A stretch of 64,000 bases of DNA from Acanthochlamys bracteata (lineage: Eukaryota > Streptophyta > Magnoliopsida > Pandanales > Velloziaceae), in contig CM034138.1 in assembly GCA_019914995.1 (NCBI GenBank), forward strand, positions 7,384,535 through 7,448,534, given 5' to 3'. Positions 5,952-58,774 of the stretch are shown one piece after another. The notes below the pieces were generated by a model. It made no database searches. It was given only the letters and a program-made list of their open reading frames with translations, and was not told the origin of the DNA. A program made the position numbers and the translations under genes. Positions within the stretch are counted from its first letter, which is position 1. Every line of letters starts with the position of its first letter.

Positions 5952-6749
5952 TTACCCCTGCCTTGAGCGCAGAAATATAGTTGTGGCAGCCACAGCGACT
6001 GTTGCTGATGCAATTGCTAGTCCAGCTGCCGCTGGCCAAGACACCTTCAAACCATTGTCCATTTCATCCAGGTCATCGATATTCTCCTTGACACCATTGG
6101 CCATGATCTCGCGATCCGCATCTGACTGCTCGTAATCGTCAATCTTCCTGTCCAATTCAGAATTCTTCTTCTCTAACTCGGAAATCTTCCTGCTCATCTC
6201 CAGAACCTTCTTCTCAAGTTTCGAATTACCCTTCTCCAGCTCAGAAACTTTTTCTCTCAGCTCTGAATTCTTCTTCTCCAGCTCGGAATTCTTCCTCTCC
6301 ATTTCATAACTCTTCTTCTCTTCCTCCTTGGCTTCCGCTTCGGAATCGCGGAGCTTGTCCTCCACCGCCGCCGTCTTCATCTTCACAGCCTCGATCTCTC
6401 TCTTCAACCCTGCAACTTCTTCCTCCTTCCCGGCGACGGCAGCGGCAGAATCATTTCGATCGGATTCGAGCGAAGAAATCTTCGATTGAAGACCAGAGAT
6501 CTCAGAACGGAGCGACTCATTGGCCGATTCGGACTCAGCGAGATCGTGCTGGGCAGCGGAGAGAGCGCTCTCAAGGTACGAAGCGTGGTTGGCGATCGAT
6601 CTCTTTTCGGACTCCGACTGCTCCAGCTCCGCCGTCAACGAATCCAAGCGTTTCCTCAGCAGCCATGATGATGATGATTCGTCTCCGCTCTCGGTGATCG
6701 TGACTTCAGCAGCTGCGGCGGCAGAGTCGTCTTGTGATTCGTGCTCCAT
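5952..6749 (-). CDS. Tail-anchored coiled-coil protein, PMD1/PMD2-like (peroxisomal and mitochondrial division factor)
   Basis: One intronless frame encodes 265 residues from the ATG at 6749 (MEHESQDD). The open frame continues upstream to 6779, but only with a GTG. Almost the whole protein is a charged heptad-type coiled coil, with repeated ELEKKNSELxxK units between about residues 150 and 210. Close to the C-terminus is one hydrophobic segment (WPAAAGLAIASATVAVAATT) followed by a short basic tail ending FLRSRQG. A cytosolic coiled coil with a C-terminal anchor and basic tail is the plan of the Arabidopsis PMD proteins, which sit on peroxisome and mitochondrial outer membranes and promote proliferation independently of dynamin. 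The assignment rests on architecture, because coiled coils give weak homology. The stop codon TAA lies inside GGGGTAAGC, so an alternative spliced C-terminus is possible. Confidence 0.72.
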   Translation of the reverse strand: MEHESQDDSAAAAAEVTITESGDESSSSWLLRKRLDSLTAELEQSESEKRSIANHASYLESALSAAQHDLAESESANESLRSEISGLQSKISSLESDRNDSAAAVAGKEEEVAGLKREIEAVKMKTAAVEDKLRDSEAEAKEEEKKSYEMERKNSELEKKNSELREKVSELEKGNSKLEKKVLEMSRKISELEKKNSELDRKIDDYEQSDADREIMANGVKENIDDLDEMDNGLKVSWPAAAGLAIASATVAVAATTIFLRSRQG

Positions 6750-7765
6750 GGATTGAGGTGGCTTCGAGTTCTTGTTCACTGAAATAGGAAATGAATAATA
6801 ATTTCTGCTGAACGCGTGTAGAGAGTGAAAGCACGATAAAATAGTCTATAAGGAATGGAAGGAAACGAATGGGCCTTATAGTTGGGGCTTTGGGCTATTA
6901 TGGGTTTCAACAGCCCAATTGCAGTACGACACGAAAGGGTACGTCTGAGTTAGCGTTCAAATTCTATTTTATTTTAAATAAATATTTTATATTAATTTAT
7001 AAAATATCTTAAAATATAAAAATTATATATTATATATTTATACATTTATAAAATGAATTATATTTATAAAGTTTTTATAATTTTTTATAAATACAAAAAT
7101 TATTTTTAAATTCTTCTTCCTAAGACTTTCAAAATGATAAACAGATCAAATAATACAGTAAAAGAATTGATTTATCCACCAATCAATAGATCTGAAAAAC
7201 ATAAAAAAATTTCTAGCAATATAATTGCCTTTGGATTTCTTTTATTTATATTTACTAGTATATTGTTCTTTAAAATATGATTTTTTGCATTATTTCAATT
7301 GATTACTTTTTTTAACAGTTTTTTTCAATTAATCCTATTACTTCTTGGGCCTTCTGGGCCGGCTGTGATTGGCATAGCTGTGAATTTACTAGTTTTAGAA
7401 GGGTATATTTATGTCCGGTTGAGTGATTCTCGCAAATTTGTTTCTGGTTTCTGCTGTTTTTTCACGCGAACACTCTCTCCCAAGTTTTTTCTGCAGCCGG
7501 TACATCTCTATCTGTCTCTCTTTTGTTCAGTTTCAATTTTTTAATATTTCCGTTCGCAATCGAAGCTCGTCGTTTGAATCTAATTTTTAGTTTCTGTTAG
7601 GGTGTGAATTTTTTAAGAATTGTTTCGGGGGTAATGCTTTTTGAAACTTATAATTCGTAGTGGCTAATGAATTTTTTTCTTCTCCACCTTTGAAATTGCA
7701 GGCGTTTCGTTGTTTTCTAATTGGAAGTTGCAGCGAGTTCTCTGATTTGATTGACGCAGTTCACC
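6750..7765. promoter_or_regulatory. Divergent intergenic region between the PMD-like gene and PDCD5
   Basis: About 1 kb separates two head-to-head start codons, so both promoters must lie here. The segment 6960-7290 is very AT-rich and looks like an old MITE. A likely 5' UTR of PDCD5 starts near 7440. An intron ending at TTGCAG just before 7703 is suggested by the pyrimidine-rich tract there. No specific promoter element was identified with confidence. Confidence 0.4.
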
Positions 7766-11284: not shown

Positions 11285-11292
11285 GTAAGCAT

Positions 11293-13250
11293 CAAAGTTG
11301 TAAAATCCGACCCGGCAGTCGACCTGAATTTGGGTCCGGATCGCGGGTTAACCCGCCGGGTCGATGGATTGACCTGTCGGGTCAGAATTAGCACTATAAT
11401 AATATCAGTCAACAAGAGATAACTGGACAGACAAAACATAAAAACATTCTTACAATACAAATTTGGTCAGCAATACAGTAAATATTTGGTTCCATTTCAA
11501 ATCCACATAACAAAGCATTGGTGGTCAATTCAAATAACAGTAACACATTAGTTTGACATGTTAAAAACTTGAAACTTAATGATGTAATACAACACATGTA
11601 ATACACATTATACTGAAATTTGAAAACAAGTCTAATGCAAACAAGCATCTTACTTGCAATATATTACACATACCAGCCTAGCTGCAAGACAGTAAGAGAC
11701 AAGTATTACAAATTATGCAGCAATTGTCTTGATGCCCAGTATGACAGCATCCCTCCAAAAACACTTTCTCATTTGCAGAAAATCAGATACTCCTTCTTTC
11801 ATTTTTCAAGATAATTCACCTGCATGTTAGTGCAAGCAGCTAGATTATTCTTACAGTTATAAGCTACTACTACAATTGATGCAATGCATAGTCCTAGCAG
11901 ATAGTGAAGGCAAGCAGGTAGAGAGACAAGCAATCTTATAGGAGTATCCAAATACTGCCAACCAATGGAATGGCACCCCAGAGTAGTCCACAGAAAAGAC
12001 CCACTGCTTGCCTGATCCAATGAAGAACATCGTATAGCTGATCCTGCAACCACTTGAAAACTTGAAATCTATCTTGTAGATTGTTACCGGCACTTCATTG
12101 ACCACAGAATTATTTCTCAAATATTCGATTACTTTCATAAACCAATGAACATCACTGAACTCCAATTTCCATAAAAAGTTTCAGAAAAATTTTGAATAAA
12201 CTTCGATTACATGAACCTCTTTAACAAATTCTACGATTACAAAATTCTATCTAAATCTTATTAAATTTTCAACGAACTTAGATGACATGAACAAAAAAAT
12301 ATTAGACTCACATACACAACTAAATAATAAATAAACAAATCTAAGACCGATTACACATGAACAATGATTAATTTCAATACCAAAACTCACAACAAGTCTA
12401 TATCTACAAATTATGAAATACAAAAACAAATAAAACATGACCAATAACTCGGACTCGAATTCCACGAAAAATAAATCTCAAAAAAAAGTTAACTGGGAGA
12501 AGAAGAAAGGGAACCTTGTCCCAAGATGCTTGGGGATCGAGAAGCTTGGCGAATTTGAACGGGAGAGCATGCCCGTTCTGCTGAAGTGGCTGCAATTTGT
12601 AGAATTGTTGAGGATTGTTGGGCAGATTCCGTCGAAAGATTGGAAAGATTCGCACCAATTCCAGACATTGGTTGGCCGACGAACAGACTGAGCAGACAAT
12701 TGCTACGGCGAGCAGAACCGAGCGGCGAATCTCGATTGGACGCAGAGACTGGTGCTCAAGTAAATTTAGGGCTTGGACGTCGGAGCTGCGAGCTGTGATG
12801 AAACTTGAGCACCAACAGCGTCACGTCAGAGGACTGGAGTCGGCGTAGCAGCGTCGGTCGAGCTCAGACGAAGCGGGGATGGAGCCACGACCGAAGAAAG
12901 AAAGGAAAAGAGGAACCAGTGATGTCAGAAGAGTGGAGCTGGCATTGCAGCAGAGATCAAGCTCCGATGAAACGGCGATCGAGAGCTCGGACGAACGGGA
13001 TCGAGCAGCAGCGAAAGAAAAAAATGGGAAAGAGAAAAAAAATGCTCGTGTCGGTGAAACGATTAGGCAGCGCGTGAGTTAGATTTTAGGTTAACCTAAC
13101 ATTAAACCGTTCAACCGGGTCAACGATTTAACCGTGAACCGTCCGGATCTACTGCATTAGCGGGTTTATTACTAATCCGGACTGGTTTGAGCGTCGAGTC
13201 GACGATTTTCGGGTCGACTCGGACGGACCGGTCTGGTTTTAATAACTATG
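11293..13250. mobile_element. Non-autonomous hAT element with captured host DNA (Pack-type)
   Basis: The left end reads CAAAGTTGTAAAATCCGACC and the right end, on the opposite strand, reads CATAGTTATTAAAACCAGAC. These form an imperfect terminal inverted repeat followed by GC-rich subterminal stretches full of CCGGGTCGA-like motifs. The 8-bp flanks are GTAAGCAT (11285-11292) and GTATGCAT (13251-13258), seven of eight matching, which is a hAT-type target duplication. Elements at 26.3 and 38.0 kb share the ends (CATAGTTG) but carry an AT-rich interior of 0.7-0.8 kb. This copy is 1958 bp, and its middle is instead filled by a captured Rab5-interacting-family gene fragment. No transposase frame is present, so movement would need a partner in trans. 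Confidence 0.8.
11943..12640 (-). pseudogene. Captured fragment of a Rab5-interacting family (RAB5IF/RCAF1-like) gene
   Basis: On the minus strand, about 12600-12515 encodes QQNGHALPFKFAKLLDPQ then ASWDK and a GT donor. After a 470-base intron and a GCAG acceptor, 12043-11943 encodes DQLYDVLHWIRQAVGLF, CGLLWGAIPLVG and SIWILL, then a stop. Together these give the conserved core LLDP-ASWDK-DQL-DVLHWIRQ-GLLWGAIPLVG of Rab5-interacting family proteins, small membrane proteins that in animals act in respirasome and membrane-protein assembly. The rest of the gene is missing and the frame stops early, so it is a pseudogene fragment. Its intron is retained, so it was taken at the DNA level and not through mRNA. 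It lies wholly inside the hAT element. Confidence 0.82.
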
Positions 13251-13626
13251 GTATGCATTAATGTTCTGGATATAAAAGATTTTCCTTTTCTTTTTTGAAA
13301 TTATTTTCTAGGTTTATAGTACCTTAATGCAAATTGTCCATTAAAATGCTCAATTAAAGTATTTATTGAATTGAAGTATATACCTGCAAGTCTAGAGAAA
13401 ATCATTTAATATAATGTTTGCAACTCTAATATAGTTTTAATGCAATTATCTTCATCCACAAGAGAAAATCATTTGAAATTATCACCAATACTGTCGTTAC
13501 AAATTTCCATGGAGACAATCTGTTAGTGTTACTTTGTGAAAATTTGGATAAAAAAATCTGCAACTGATCATTGGTTAGCTACGCAGACTACATGGTATTA
13601 GCAACTGATTGTTAGCACTGTCTGCA

Positions 13627-15945
13627 ATGGCTCCGAATTTCAGAAATTCACTAGATTTCCCGGTCACTACTGCTACATGTCTTCGCTATTTCTGCACTAG
13701 AGCAGTTGTTGGCAGAAAAACAAGCCCTTTAGTTGAGAGAACGGTGGAAGATCTCTCTTTGGATGATGCACTGCAGATGTTCGACAGAATGCTCCAAGCA
13801 AAACCAAGGCCTGATGTTTATTCCTTCAATACTCTGCTGAAATGTCTCGTGAAAATGAAGCACTACGAAGCCGTGCTATCTCTCTACCGCAGGATGAAGC
13901 TGTCGAGAATCTCAAGCACGATTCGTACATATAGTATCCTTGTTGATAGCTGCTGCTACTTGAATGAAGTGGATATTGGCTTCGGCTTCTTGGGGGAATT
14001 GCTGAAACGGGGTTGTGCTCCTAATACCATCTACTTCAATATTCTTATTAAGGGTCTTTGTGGTGACAATAGGATGGACGAAGCAGCGGCGGTGTTTGAC
14101 AAAATGTCCCAATTGGGTTGCCCTCCTGATTTTTTAACTTGCAGCATTTTATATCGTGGGCTCTGCAGAGGTGGCAAAGCAATTTTGGCTCTCCAGCTGC
14201 ACAGGGAAATGATGGCAAAGGACAAAGCTTATGCACCTGATGTCGTGACCTATAGCACACTCATAGATAGAGTGTCCAAACAAGGGTGCTTAAGCGATGC
14301 TGTCAAACTGTTTGAGGAAATGAATTCCATGGGCATTCAGCCAGATGTTGTAACATACACCTGCATCATTCAGGTATATTCTCGTTCTGGCAACTGGCCT
14401 GAAGCAATTAAACTATTCAAAGACATGGTGAACCAAGGCCTTTCACCAAATGCTGTCACTTTTGGTACCTTGATACATTCTTTATGTAAAGTGGGGAAGC
14501 TAGGAGAGGCATTTAAGCTTTATGATATCATGATAGAGAGAGGTGAAAGACCTGGTGCTTTCATGCATAATACATTACTGCATGGACTTTGCGCTTCAGG
14601 GCATCTTGATGATGCAATTCAGATATTCGATCAGATGAAATTGAAAGGACTTGAGCTCCATGTCGGTTGCTATAATACCTTGATAGATGGATGTTGCAAG
14701 GAGCAAAGACTTGATGAAGCATTCTGCATACTAGAAAAAATGGTCACAGAGAGGATAAAGCCTGACGTTGTTACCTACAGCGCTTTGATGGATGGGTTAT
14801 ATCGTGTTGGTAGGTTGAATGATGTTGAGAATCTGTTCAAAAAGATGCTTTACGAGAACATTGCTCCAAATGCTATCACTTACAATATCTTAATATGCAG
14901 CTTTTGCAACATAGGTAATTGGCAACAAGCTTTGGAATGTCTAAATAGGATGGCAAACTCAAAAATTCCTCTAAATGCTACGATTTTCAATTCGTTAATT
15001 TCTGGGTTTTGCAGTGAAGGGATGATAAAAGAAGTAGAAGTATTATTAGGATTTATGTACAAAAATGATATTAAACCTGATATAATAACTTATAATTCAC
15101 TTGTGGATGGATATTTTAAGGTAGAAAGAGTGGACAAGGCGAGAAGGGTTTTTGATGTCATGGTTTCGAAAGGTGAAGTTCCAAATGTGGTTACGTATTC
15201 CACCCTGATATATGGCTATTACAAGTCAAACAGAGTTATGGAAGCCTTAGGATTATTTTATGAGATGTCATGCAAAGGAATTGTTCCAGATACAGTAGCC
15301 TATACCACCTTGCTATCTGCATTGTATCAATCCAAGCAAACCCTTGTTGCAGAAAAACTTTTTAATGAGATGCAAGCTAAGGGTATTAGCTTTGGTGTTC
15401 GTACTTGGAATGTCAGGTTGGATGGGCTCTGCAAGTGCCAAAATGTGGATGAGGCCTTAAAAGCGTTTGAAGTTATGAATTCTTTAAATATGCAGCCTAA
15501 TAATTTCACTTGCAGCATCTTAATCAATGGACTGTTCAGATCTGGTAAGATACAAGCTGCTAGGGATCTCTTTAAGGTTATGACTGATAGAGGATTGGTG
15601 CCTGATATGGTCGTTTATAATGTTATGATAAGAGGCTATATTAAAGGAGGGTTACTGGATGAAGCTAACAACTTGTTGAAAGCGATGCAGAGAACCGGTG
15701 TTCCTCTAGATTCGCGCATTTGCAATGTAATCATCAGAGCGTTTCTCTCGAAAGGTGATGTGCAGAAGTTGGTCGAGTTTCTTTATGAATTTAGGGGCAA
15801 AGGGTTTTTACTGAATGACGCCACTGTGGATGCGGTGGTTAGTTTACTAATCCAAACTCCCCAACATAAGGAAATCATAGCTTTGCTGCCCGATCTTCAT
15901 AGATATTGTAGTCACTCTGGAGGAACATCCGAGTCCGGTAAATAA
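13627..15945 (+). CDS. P-class pentatricopeptide repeat protein, Rf-like (restorer-of-fertility-like)
   Basis: One uninterrupted intronless frame encodes 772 residues. The start is the ATG at 13627 (MAPNFRNSLDF); the open frame upstream has only a TTG. The first 40 or so residues are basic and hydroxylated with few acids (CLRYFCTRAVVGRK), as in a mitochondrial presequence. From about residue 50 to 740 there are close to twenty 35-residue PPR motifs, recognisable by recurring PDVVTYSTLIDG and MxxxGxxPN steps. No E, DYW, SMR or LAGLIDADG domain follows. Such P-class proteins bind organellar RNA, and the Rf-like clade suppresses or processes mitochondrial transcripts, often aberrant male-sterility ORFs. 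Absence of introns, the YSFNTLLKCLVK start of the repeats and a decayed paralogue 43 kb away fit Rf-like PPRs, which evolve in clusters. The actual RNA target is unknown. Confidence 0.9.
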   Translation: MAPNFRNSLDFPVTTATCLRYFCTRAVVGRKTSPLVERTVEDLSLDDALQMFDRMLQAKPRPDVYSFNTLLKCLVKMKHYEAVLSLYRRMKLSRISSTIRTYSILVDSCCYLNEVDIGFGFLGELLKRGCAPNTIYFNILIKGLCGDNRMDEAAAVFDKMSQLGCPPDFLTCSILYRGLCRGGKAILALQLHREMMAKDKAYAPDVVTYSTLIDRVSKQGCLSDAVKLFEEMNSMGIQPDVVTYTCIIQVYSRSGNWPEAIKLFKDMVNQGLSPNAVTFGTLIHSLCKVGKLGEAFKLYDIMIERGERPGAFMHNTLLHGLCASGHLDDAIQIFDQMKLKGLELHVGCYNTLIDGCCKEQRLDEAFCILEKMVTERIKPDVVTYSALMDGLYRVGRLNDVENLFKKMLYENIAPNAITYNILICSFCNIGNWQQALECLNRMANSKIPLNATIFNSLISGFCSEGMIKEVEVLLGFMYKNDIKPDIITYNSLVDGYFKVERVDKARRVFDVMVSKGEVPNVVTYSTLIYGYYKSNRVMEALGLFYEMSCKGIVPDTVAYTTLLSALYQSKQTLVAEKLFNEMQAKGISFGVRTWNVRLDGLCKCQNVDEALKAFEVMNSLNMQPNNFTCSILINGLFRSGKIQAARDLFKVMTDRGLVPDMVVYNVMIRGYIKGGLLDEANNLLKAMQRTGVPLDSRICNVIIRAFLSKGDVQKLVEFLYEFRGKGFLLNDATVDAVVSLLIQTPQHKEIIALLPDLHRYCSHSGGTSESGK

Positions 15946-20641: not shown

Positions 20642-20719
20642 TTTATTTTTTCAATTTACTCTGAGAAATTCACTTCCTAACAACTCATTTCATTCTCCCT
20701 TTCAAAAACTCACTTCAGT

Positions 20720-21001
20720 ATTCTCATATATGGCACGCATATACTGCGTAAAGCCAATTGTTCCCATTTTCATAGACTTTGATCAAGGTATGCAAAAACA
20801 AAAGAAAATAAATATTCTCATATATGGCACGCATATACTACGTAAAGCCAATTGTTCCCATTTTCATAGACTTTGATCAAGGTATGTAAAAACAAAAGAA
20901 AATAAATATTCTCATATATGTCATGCATATACTACGTAAAGCCAATTGTTCCCATTTTCATAGACTTTGATCAAGGTATGCAAAAACAAAAGAAAATAAG
21001 T
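20720..21001. repeat. Three tandem copies of a 94-bp unit
   Basis: Units begin at 20720, 20814 and 20908 with ATTCTCATATATG and end with AAAAGAAAATAA. The period is exactly 94 bp, and the three copies differ at only a few positions (for example GCGT/ACGT and GGCACGC/GTCATGC). The unit has the core AAGCCAATTGTTCCC and TGATCAAGGTATG. It lies upstream of the ABCI1 gene, with no sign that it is coding. Confidence 0.93.
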
Positions 21002-26284: not shown

Positions 26285-26964
26285 CATAGTTGTCAGATCT
26301 GGACGGTAAATCGGTCAGAATTTGCAAAAAAATCGTTTATGCAATCGACCCGTTTCGATCCAGTTTGATCTATTTTGACCCGCTTCAACCCGATCAATCC
26401 ACCCGCCCGAATTGAATAAAATTTTAAAAAAATTGATGATATATTTAACGCAAAAATAATTATTAATAATTCTATATTAAAAAATAATATGTAGTTTAGA
26501 TTTTCTATTTGGATGTGATAATACAAAATTATAATTGATTATGTCTTATTTGTAAATATTAATTATTAGTTAATTTTAAATTTTTATATTGTAAAATATT
26601 CAGACTCAAATATGTATACCTAAAAAAATTAGTTATGTCTCTTTTATAATTTTATCTCTTTCTAATCTCCTAATTTATTTAAATATTTTTTATTATAAAT
26701 TTTCGTTGTTATTATTATTGCTGGTAATAGTAATACTATGGTGGCAATATTTCAATTTTCGCTATAATTATTATTGCTGTTGTTGTTAATAGTAATGCCA
26801 TAGTAAAATATTTTAATTTTTTGCTATAATTGCTGCTACTATTATTGTTGATAGTATCATAATAGTAGTAGTTTTTTTAATGTAATTTTTGTTATTATTG
26901 ATTAAAAATGCTTTAATATTATTGACCCGACGGCTCGATGTCCGATCCAATTTTTATAATTATG
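26285..26964. mobile_element. Non-autonomous hAT element, CATAGTTG family, 680 bp
   Basis: The left end is CATAGTTGTCAGATCTGGAC. The right end reversed starts CATAATTATAAAAATTGGAT. The flanks ATATTTAG and TTATTTAG match at seven of eight positions. The interior matches the 38.0-kb element over several hundred bases (for example TTGATGATATATTTAA, TTTGGATGTGATAAT and CAAATATGTATACCTAAA) and has TTATTATTGCTG-like trinucleotide-rich stretches. It encodes no transposase. Confidence 0.8.
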
Positions 26965-37977: not shown

Positions 37978-38793
37978 CATAGTTGGCAGATCCGGACCGA
38001 CCCGTCCTATCCGGAAACCGTCAATCCGGACGGTAAATTGGTCCGAATTTATAAAAAGACCGTTTATGCAATCGACCTATTTTGACCCGTCTTGACCCGT
38101 TTGATCCGTTTCAATCCGGTCGACCCGCCCGCCCGGATTAAACCGGATTAATTTTTTTAATTAATTAAAATTTTTTTTTACAAATTAATTAAAATTTTTT
38201 AAATTGATGATATATTTAATACAAAAATAATTATTAATAGTCCTATATTGAAAAATAATATATAGTTTAAATTTTGTATTTGGATGTGATAATGTAAAAA
38301 TATAATTGCTTATGTCTTATTTATAAATATCAATTATTAGTGATTATTAAATTTTTATATTGTAAAATATTTAGAATCAAATATGTATACCTAAAAAATT
38401 TTGTTATATCTCTTTTATGATTTCTCTATTTTATGATTTTATTTTTTTCTAATCTCCTAATTTATTTAAATATTTCTTATTATAAATTTTAGTCGTTATT
38501 ATTGTTATTGGTGGTGGTAATATTTCAATTTTCGCTGTGATTATTATTACCGTTGTTGTTGATAGTAATGCTATAATAAAAATATTTTAATTTTTTGCTA
38601 TGATTACTATTGCTATTATTATTGGTAGTATTATTGGTAATAGATTTCTTACTGTAATTATTGTTATTATTAATTAAAAATACTTTAATATTATTGACCC
38701 GACGGTTCGATCGGTTGACCCGACGGTTTGACTCAAGAACCGTGATCCGGACAATTTTTCGGTTCGATATCTGGTCCGGTTCTTACAACTATG
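37978..38793. mobile_element. Non-autonomous hAT element, CATAGTTG family, 816 bp
   Basis: The left end is CATAGTTGGCAGATCCGGAC and the reversed right end is CATAGTTGTAAGAACCGGAC. The flanking 8-mer GTTTTTTT is the same on both sides (37970-37977 and 38794-38801). Both ends carry CCGACCCG-like subterminal motifs and the middle is AT-rich and matches the 26.3-kb element. It encodes no protein. This is the best-defined copy of the family in the window. Confidence 0.9.
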
Positions 38794-58164: not shown

Positions 58165-58774
58165 GTATCAACCCAAGCAAGCTGCGGAAAAACTTTTTAG
58201 TGACATGCAAGCTAAAGGTATTAGCCTTGGTCTTCATACTTGGAATGTCAGGTTACATGGGCTCTTCGAGTGTCATAATGTTGATGAGGCATTGAAAGTG
58301 TTTGAAGTTATGAATTCTTCAAATTTGCAACCTAATGTTATTACATACACCATTTTAATCAATGGTCTGTCCAGATCCGGCAAGATACAAGCTGCAGGGG
58401 ATCTCTTTAAGGCAATGACTGATCGAGGATTAGTGCCCGACGTGGTCACTTATGATAGTATGATAAAGGCTATATTAAAGGAGGATTGCTGGATGAAGCT
58501 GTCAACTTGTTGGAAGTGATGAGGAGAACCGGTTGTCCTCTAGATTTGCAGATTTGCAATGCAATCGTCAGAGCTTTTCTATCGAAAGGTGATGTGCAGA
58601 AGGTGGCCGACCTTTATAAATTTGGTGGCAAAGGGTTTTACTGGAGGACGCCACTTTTCGTGAGTTGCTTAGTTTACTAACCCAGACTCCCCAACATAGG
58701 GAAATCATAGCCTTGCTGCCTGACCTTCGTAGATGTTGTAGTAAATCTGGAAGAACATCCAATCTCTGTGAATA
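58165..58774 (+). pseudogene. PPR gene fragment (3' part of an Rf-like PPR)
   Basis: It matches the last third of the PPR gene at 13.6-15.9 kb, from TATCAACCCAAGCAAGC to the stop. It reads AEKLFSDMQAKGISLGLHTW, FEVMNSSNLQPNVITYTI, NGLSRSGKIQAAGDLF and MTDRGLVPDVVTYDSMIK. One base is missing near 58468, which puts the next step (LDEAVNLLEVMRRTGCPLD) in another frame. A second missing base in GGGTTTTACTGG (about 58636) breaks the end, where LLTQTPQHREIIALLPDLRR is in a third frame. The 5' two thirds of the gene are absent. The matching 3' flank shows that a genomic duplication, not a retrocopy, produced it. Confidence 0.9.

Follow-up and report, generated by a model that had tools for sequence, protein, structure and literature searches.

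The locus examined here raises the question of whether a hAT transposon has taken up part of a host gene and, if so, by what route. Within the window, by which we mean the whole stretch of 64,000 nucleotides that was analysed, positions 11293–13250 are occupied by a composite non-autonomous hAT element of 1958 bp, defined by its target-site duplication (TSD), its ends and a genome search; the coordinates given in a preliminary description of this DNA proved exact. The flanking 8-mers GTAAGCAT (11285–11292) and GTATGCAT (13251–13258) are identical at 7/8 positions and, as relatives of the element have 8-bp duplications, were assigned as the left and right copies of its TSD. The ends are imperfect inverted repeats (CAAAGTTGTAAAATCC.. 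/ CATAGTTATTAAAACC..), and these short TIRs are common to the full-length relatives.

A host gene segment between two hAT ends

A search of the whole assembly (195.5 Mb, 557 contigs) divided the element into three parts, at element positions 1–645, 638–1301 and 1304–1958. The two outer parts matched many loci, with identities of up to 90% and 92% respectively, and the outer ~640 bp on each side is common to ten genomic copies of 4.9–5.7 kb (L010–L019) in which both ends are present. The left end (11293–11937), which corresponds to the 3' side of the transposase, is 85–90% identical to these full-length relatives, with L011 aligning from position 80 only. The right end (12596–13250, minus strand) holds the transposase 5' region with its ATG at 12668–12666 and the first ~23 codons, which are all that is left of the transposase. 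The middle part showed a 97% match to C15:6938194-6938856 and a 71–74% match to a paralogue on C10; when the middle alone was the query, the hits were the window copy itself, the C15 locus and the C10 paralogue in two pieces.

The middle is a 664-bp RAB5IF/OPTI genomic segment (11930–12593) on the minus strand. It comprises exon 1 without the parental ATG and first codons (12515–12593), the whole of the 471-bp intron 1 with both splice sites intact (12044–12514), and exon 2 (11939–12043), which stops where intron 2 formerly began and where the GT of the old 5' splice site is now AT; the interior had previously been described, correctly, as two exons and the intervening intron of a RAB5IF gene. 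In the C15 parent, MKKSKSTKLAKQQQLQQNGHALPFKFAKLLDPEASWDK is followed by an intron of ~0.47 kb, then by DQLYDVLHWIRQAVGLFCGLLWGAIPLVGSIWILL and, at a distance of over 2 kb, by exon 3, with splice joints placed and exons joined by eye. The joined parent protein matched Pfam EMC6 (4.8e-13) and PDB chain 7tut_9 (E 9.2e-23), a chain named as the obligate partner of the TMCO1 insertase, identifying the parent as a RAB5IF/OPTI homologue. As had been predicted, this is one close gene elsewhere in the genome, with coding exons that extend beyond the captured stretch on both sides (the ATG before it, exon 3 after it). A tblastn search of the window with the parent protein matched 12598–12515 and 12052–11939 only, all other matches having E > 1; exon 3 was not found in the window, and no RAB5IF exon was found in the window outside the element. 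The retention of intron 1 indicates that the template for capture was DNA, as had been proposed, and genomic DNA of the host RAB5IF gene has thus been copied into a hAT element. The segment differs from its parent by 3%, and some of the differences map to the segment's own branch. More copies of the composite had been expected, but none was found in the assembly (40 of 115 candidates scored in the whole-element search and 3/3 in the middle-only search); in the assembly searched it is a single copy. The element is almost certainly a Pack-hAT, whichever route produced it.

The ends had also been said to be shared with two other local copies. Both exist, as AT-rich, MITE-like elements at 26285–26964 (TSD ATATTTAG/TTATTTAG, 7/8, by eye) and 37978–38793 (TSD GTTTTTTT on both sides, 8/8, by eye), but they are distant relatives and not copies of the RAB5IF composite. 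The latter is ~67% identical to the left end of the element over 99 bp; the former, which had no blastn match to the RAB5IF element, is 90% identical to the latter over 223 bp. Elsewhere in the window, a 778-aa open frame that is presumably PPR-like (13609–15945) starts ~360 bp past the right end of the element, and stretches at 58183–58610 are 84–87% alike to part of this frame. Three head-to-tail copies of a 94-bp unit, 96–98% identical, lie at 20719–21000, and a 275-aa coiled-coil-like frame with a hydrophobic C-terminal tail (5952–6779, minus strand) resembles a peroxisomal and mitochondrial division factor.

The carrier family and a second capture

Pfam scans of two full-length relatives were informative as to the carrier. 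The L014 protein, read leftwards from the right end, contains zf-BED (2.9e-06) and DUF659 (3.1e-55) domains and L015 encodes the hAT dimerisation region (Dimer_Tnp_hAT, 1.1e-12); the remaining copies were translated only, and several of the translated full-length relatives are interrupted by stops or frameshifts. Perfect 8-bp TSDs were present at 6/14 relative boundaries (L012, L013, L015, L016, L018 and L020) and 7/8 matches at two more (L014 and L017). At the other six (L010, L011, L019, L021, L022 and L027) the BLAST-based limits were off the true ends; following correction, L019 has an 8/8 TSD (one end shifted by 2 bases) and L027 a 6/8 TSD, with L010, L011, L021 and L022 left uncorrected in this count. 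Of six small relatives fetched, three (L043, L045 and L046; 624–636 bp) also have perfect 8-bp duplications, which were located by motif search. By its 8-bp TSD, the shared short TIRs and the transposase domains of its relatives, the carrier is a hAT element. The family also includes a 1467-bp deletion derivative with a perfect 8-bp TSD (L020 501–1967), in which the filler at the junction resembles the element's own sequence by eye.

A further member of the family on C18 (L027) has a layout near-identical to that of the window element with a different interior of 709 bp. This interior is also found at C14:4501094 (94%) and partly at C7:6433853 (86%), in both cases within copies of the element, giving a second Pack-hAT at three loci (L027 5144–6650; L034 3111–4660; L033 3366–4666). 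The TSDs are CAAATAAG/CAAATAAG for the C7 copy, CTTTAAAG/CCTTAAAG for the C14 copy and ATTGTAAT/GTTGTAAC (6/8) for the C18 copy, and the possession by each of its own target duplication indicates that this composite moved after it arose. The interior is present in addition at C10:6883636-6884311 (L042 3948–4624); in the 8.6 kb retrieved for that locus, we found no element ends. At this likely donor locus the interior corresponds to the 5' UTR and exon 1 of a gene of the mitochondrial-carrier type (Mito_carr 1e-16; exons joined by eye), together with part of its intron 1; we take the gene to be a peroxisomal adenine nucleotide carrier. A short stretch of the L027 interior matches C15:6046224 (91%), and L027 and L034 carry ~50 bp that is absent from C10. 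Frameshifts affect the captured carrier exon 1 in L027 and L033, and in L034 it has six amino acid changes; like the RAB5IF exons, it lies in the transposase sense.

When right ends are compared in a tree, the three copies form a group (support 0.959) that does not include the window element, and this separate grouping indicates that the mitochondrial-carrier capture was independent of the RAB5IF capture. That one is a diverged form of the other was considered and rejected: the interiors are unmatched (best E 0.25) and the two captures differ in the clade to which their right ends belong. The survey for more captures in the family covered few of the low-identity relatives that have a short end match. 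Parent and paralogue of each captured gene are carried by C10 and C15, possibly a chromosome pair that goes back to an old duplication.

Breakpoints, timing and the route of capture

Full-length relatives allow the breakpoints to be placed in element coordinates of L014, where an array of about three 28-bp units occupies 603–683 (locus L014 1103–1183); TRF reported the array in L018 and none in L011 at the TRF threshold. The left breakpoints of the window element (~630), of L027 and L034 (~641) and of L020 (~619) all fall inside this array, and that of L021, another deletion derivative, falls outside it at ~981. On the right the breakpoints are ~4886 for the window element, ~4862 for L027 and L034, ~4761 for L020 and ~4893 for L021, such that the second capture lies between nearly the same internal breakpoints as the RAB5IF capture. 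By comparison with L014 the breakpoints of the window element lie at 11% and 88% of the full-length element, of which 77% is lost. At the left junction, in-register microhomology with the parent gene is 6 bp using L011, the copy without a TRF-reported array and the only one of four relatives compared for which this length holds, and 3 bp using L014, L015 or L010; in 200,000 simulated junctions, runs of at least 6 arose in 0.32% and of at least 3 in 7.4%. Inspection of the right junction revealed no clear microhomology.

The element has lost much of its length, its breakpoints sit close to the two ends, its donor is on a different contig, one junction falls in repeats and there is a measure of microhomology; taken together, these features favour gap repair after excision, in which synthesis switched to an ectopic template. 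We infer that a resident hAT element of ~5.5 kb was excised and that, in repair, the sister template would then have been copied from its two flanks towards the middle. Synthesis on the left side would have stalled within the 28-bp repeats and, at 3 to 6 bp of microhomology, switched to the RAB5IF gene of a different contig; the right side of the chimera would have been closed just within the first exon of the transposase. The outcome is an internally deleted element that lacks ~4.3 kb, comprising nearly the whole transposase and the inner repeats, and has in its place a 664-bp ectopic copy of RAB5IF/OPTI. The anatomy, the donor, the direction in which DNA was copied and the target duplication can be read from the sequences; the repair route is our reconstruction. 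In a study of animal elements (PMC8277862), larger, end-biased deletions are what is expected of repair after excision, and small internal gaps of the filling of internal breaks; the 77% loss with breakpoints near the ends matches the former. The second capture and L020, which also break in the 28-bp array, were counted in favour of a stall in repair, and L021, with its left break outside the array, against it. In our judgement the probable account of this element is a Pack-hAT that arose through excision and incomplete repair of the gap, during which synthesis switched template to the ectopic RAB5IF gene.

In a different history, an old, immobile element would have broken internally at a fragile repeat and been patched in place, independently of transposition, and the composite would never have moved. 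The single copy of the RAB5IF composite in the assembly and the left breakpoint within repeats are as this history would have it, and the same route is assigned to most single-copy animal cases in PMC8277862. Timing bears on it too. The ends of the element carry 56 private changes in 1202 columns by comparison with relatives, and the captured middle 6 own-branch changes, or 8 if two unresolved ones are counted, over about 635 sites, this last figure having been entered by hand (Fisher p 8e-6 with 6 changes, 8e-5 with 8). C-to-T or G-to-A changes make up 34/56 of those in the ends, and without them p is 0.018 or 0.10. Ends in the second-capture family diverge 1.5–2 times faster than the interior (interior rate 0.48–0.65 of that of the ends), and at this ratio 14–19 changes would be expected in the middle by comparison with the 6–8 seen. 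Taken at face value, these counts suggest that capture took place after the element had split from its sampled relatives. The excess of private changes in the ends, together with a middle that stays below its rate-adjusted expectation, fits a break long after insertion and counts against excision repair; it is a moderate hint towards patching in place. The changes in the ends may, however, stem from an unsampled active lineage prior to insertion. Further, ~77% of the element is gone and its breakpoints lie near the ends, whereas the gaps described in PMC8277862 have a median of 4.6% of element size; unlike the cis-biased single-copy cases of that study, this element also has its donor on a different contig. 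We regard in-place filling as possible but rather doubtful.

Two elements flanking part of RAB5IF could alternatively have moved as one unit by tandem insertion and re-mobilisation (end bypass), which is the preferred route for Pack-TYPE elements generally, hAT included, in PMC8903248. However, when the element was compared by blastn with 7.0 kb around the C15 parent, it matched there in the captured segment only and no family end was present, and both junctions lie within subterminal sequence and not at a TIR; this route is very unlikely here. That the assembly has falsely joined a hAT copy to a RAB5IF gene might be suspected from there being only one such locus, but is improbable in the extreme: the segment has diverged from its parent by 3%, including own-branch changes, the element has both its ends and lies within a target duplication, and the second composite, with the same layout, recurs at three loci. 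It can also be asked whether the family has a built-in capture pocket, in which the array and the first exon of the transposase stop repair synthesis at fixed points and repeatedly place the 5' parts of host genes in sense behind the transposase promoter, making chimeric genes recurrently. Recurrence in nearly one pocket of one family rests on few events and we consider such a device unlikely, but the recurrence is the part that deserves a second look, and with breakpoints that nearly coincide the idea of a stall in repair is open to direct test.

Predicted transcript and relation to known systems

The retained transposase ATG and the RAB5IF exons are both on the minus strand, and transcription driven by the former transposase promoter would read through the exons in sense. 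Transcripts antisense to the parent gene had been envisaged; the captured exons being in the transposase sense, these are not favoured. Provided that intron 1 is spliced, a chimeric frame of 132 aa is predicted to run from the transposase ATG to a stop at 11799 (11799–12668, minus strand), out of the RAB5IF frame. It had no match in Pfam and, given how little the sequence has diverged from the parent, its being open is weak evidence. The RAB5IF frame itself has no ATG within the open stretch upstream. No function is expected of the RAB5IF chimera. The parent product is a homologue of RAB5IF/OPTI, the TMCO1 insertase partner (7tut_9), but of its gene the element has just an incomplete exon 1 with intron 1 and exon 2.

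Pack-MULEs contain captured host exons, have the parent gene elsewhere and include a multicopy class. The elements described here are alike in all of these respects but belong to a different superfamily, with an 8-bp TSD and hAT transposase domains. Gene capture had been presented as rarely reported for hAT elements. Such captures are documented more widely than that suggests: Pack-hATs are reported in maize, with hAT annotation in rice too (PMC8903248), transduplication of introns and exons by a grapevine hAT was published in 2008 (PMC2528002), and hAT elements account for 208/370 animal Pack-TIRs (PMC8277862). Among the papers searched, none linked RAB5IF to a transposon; with Pack-hATs and hAT transduplication already published, the RAB5IF element is a further example and not a surprise. 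What the family offers is a set of likely donors, readable junctions and full-length relatives.

The maize Pack-hATs (PMC8903248) are likewise non-autonomous, with TIRs and a TSD around host coding DNA; they differ in plant and gene, and that paper prefers tandem insertion and re-mobilisation whereas the anatomy in Acanthochlamys favours a template switch. Grapevine Hatvine-6 is again a hAT family with shared TIRs and a variable interior containing genic introns and exons but its copies are described as sharing transposase coding sequence (PMC2528002), nearly all of which the window element has lost. Animal hAT Pack-TIRs (PMC8277862) have single-copy and multicopy classes and microhomology at breakpoints, as here, although the deletion in the window element is large and end-biased and its donor is on another contig. 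By comparison with these animal classes, one plant hAT family shows both Pack-TIR outcomes, the RAB5IF capture being single-copy and the mitochondrial-carrier capture multicopy.
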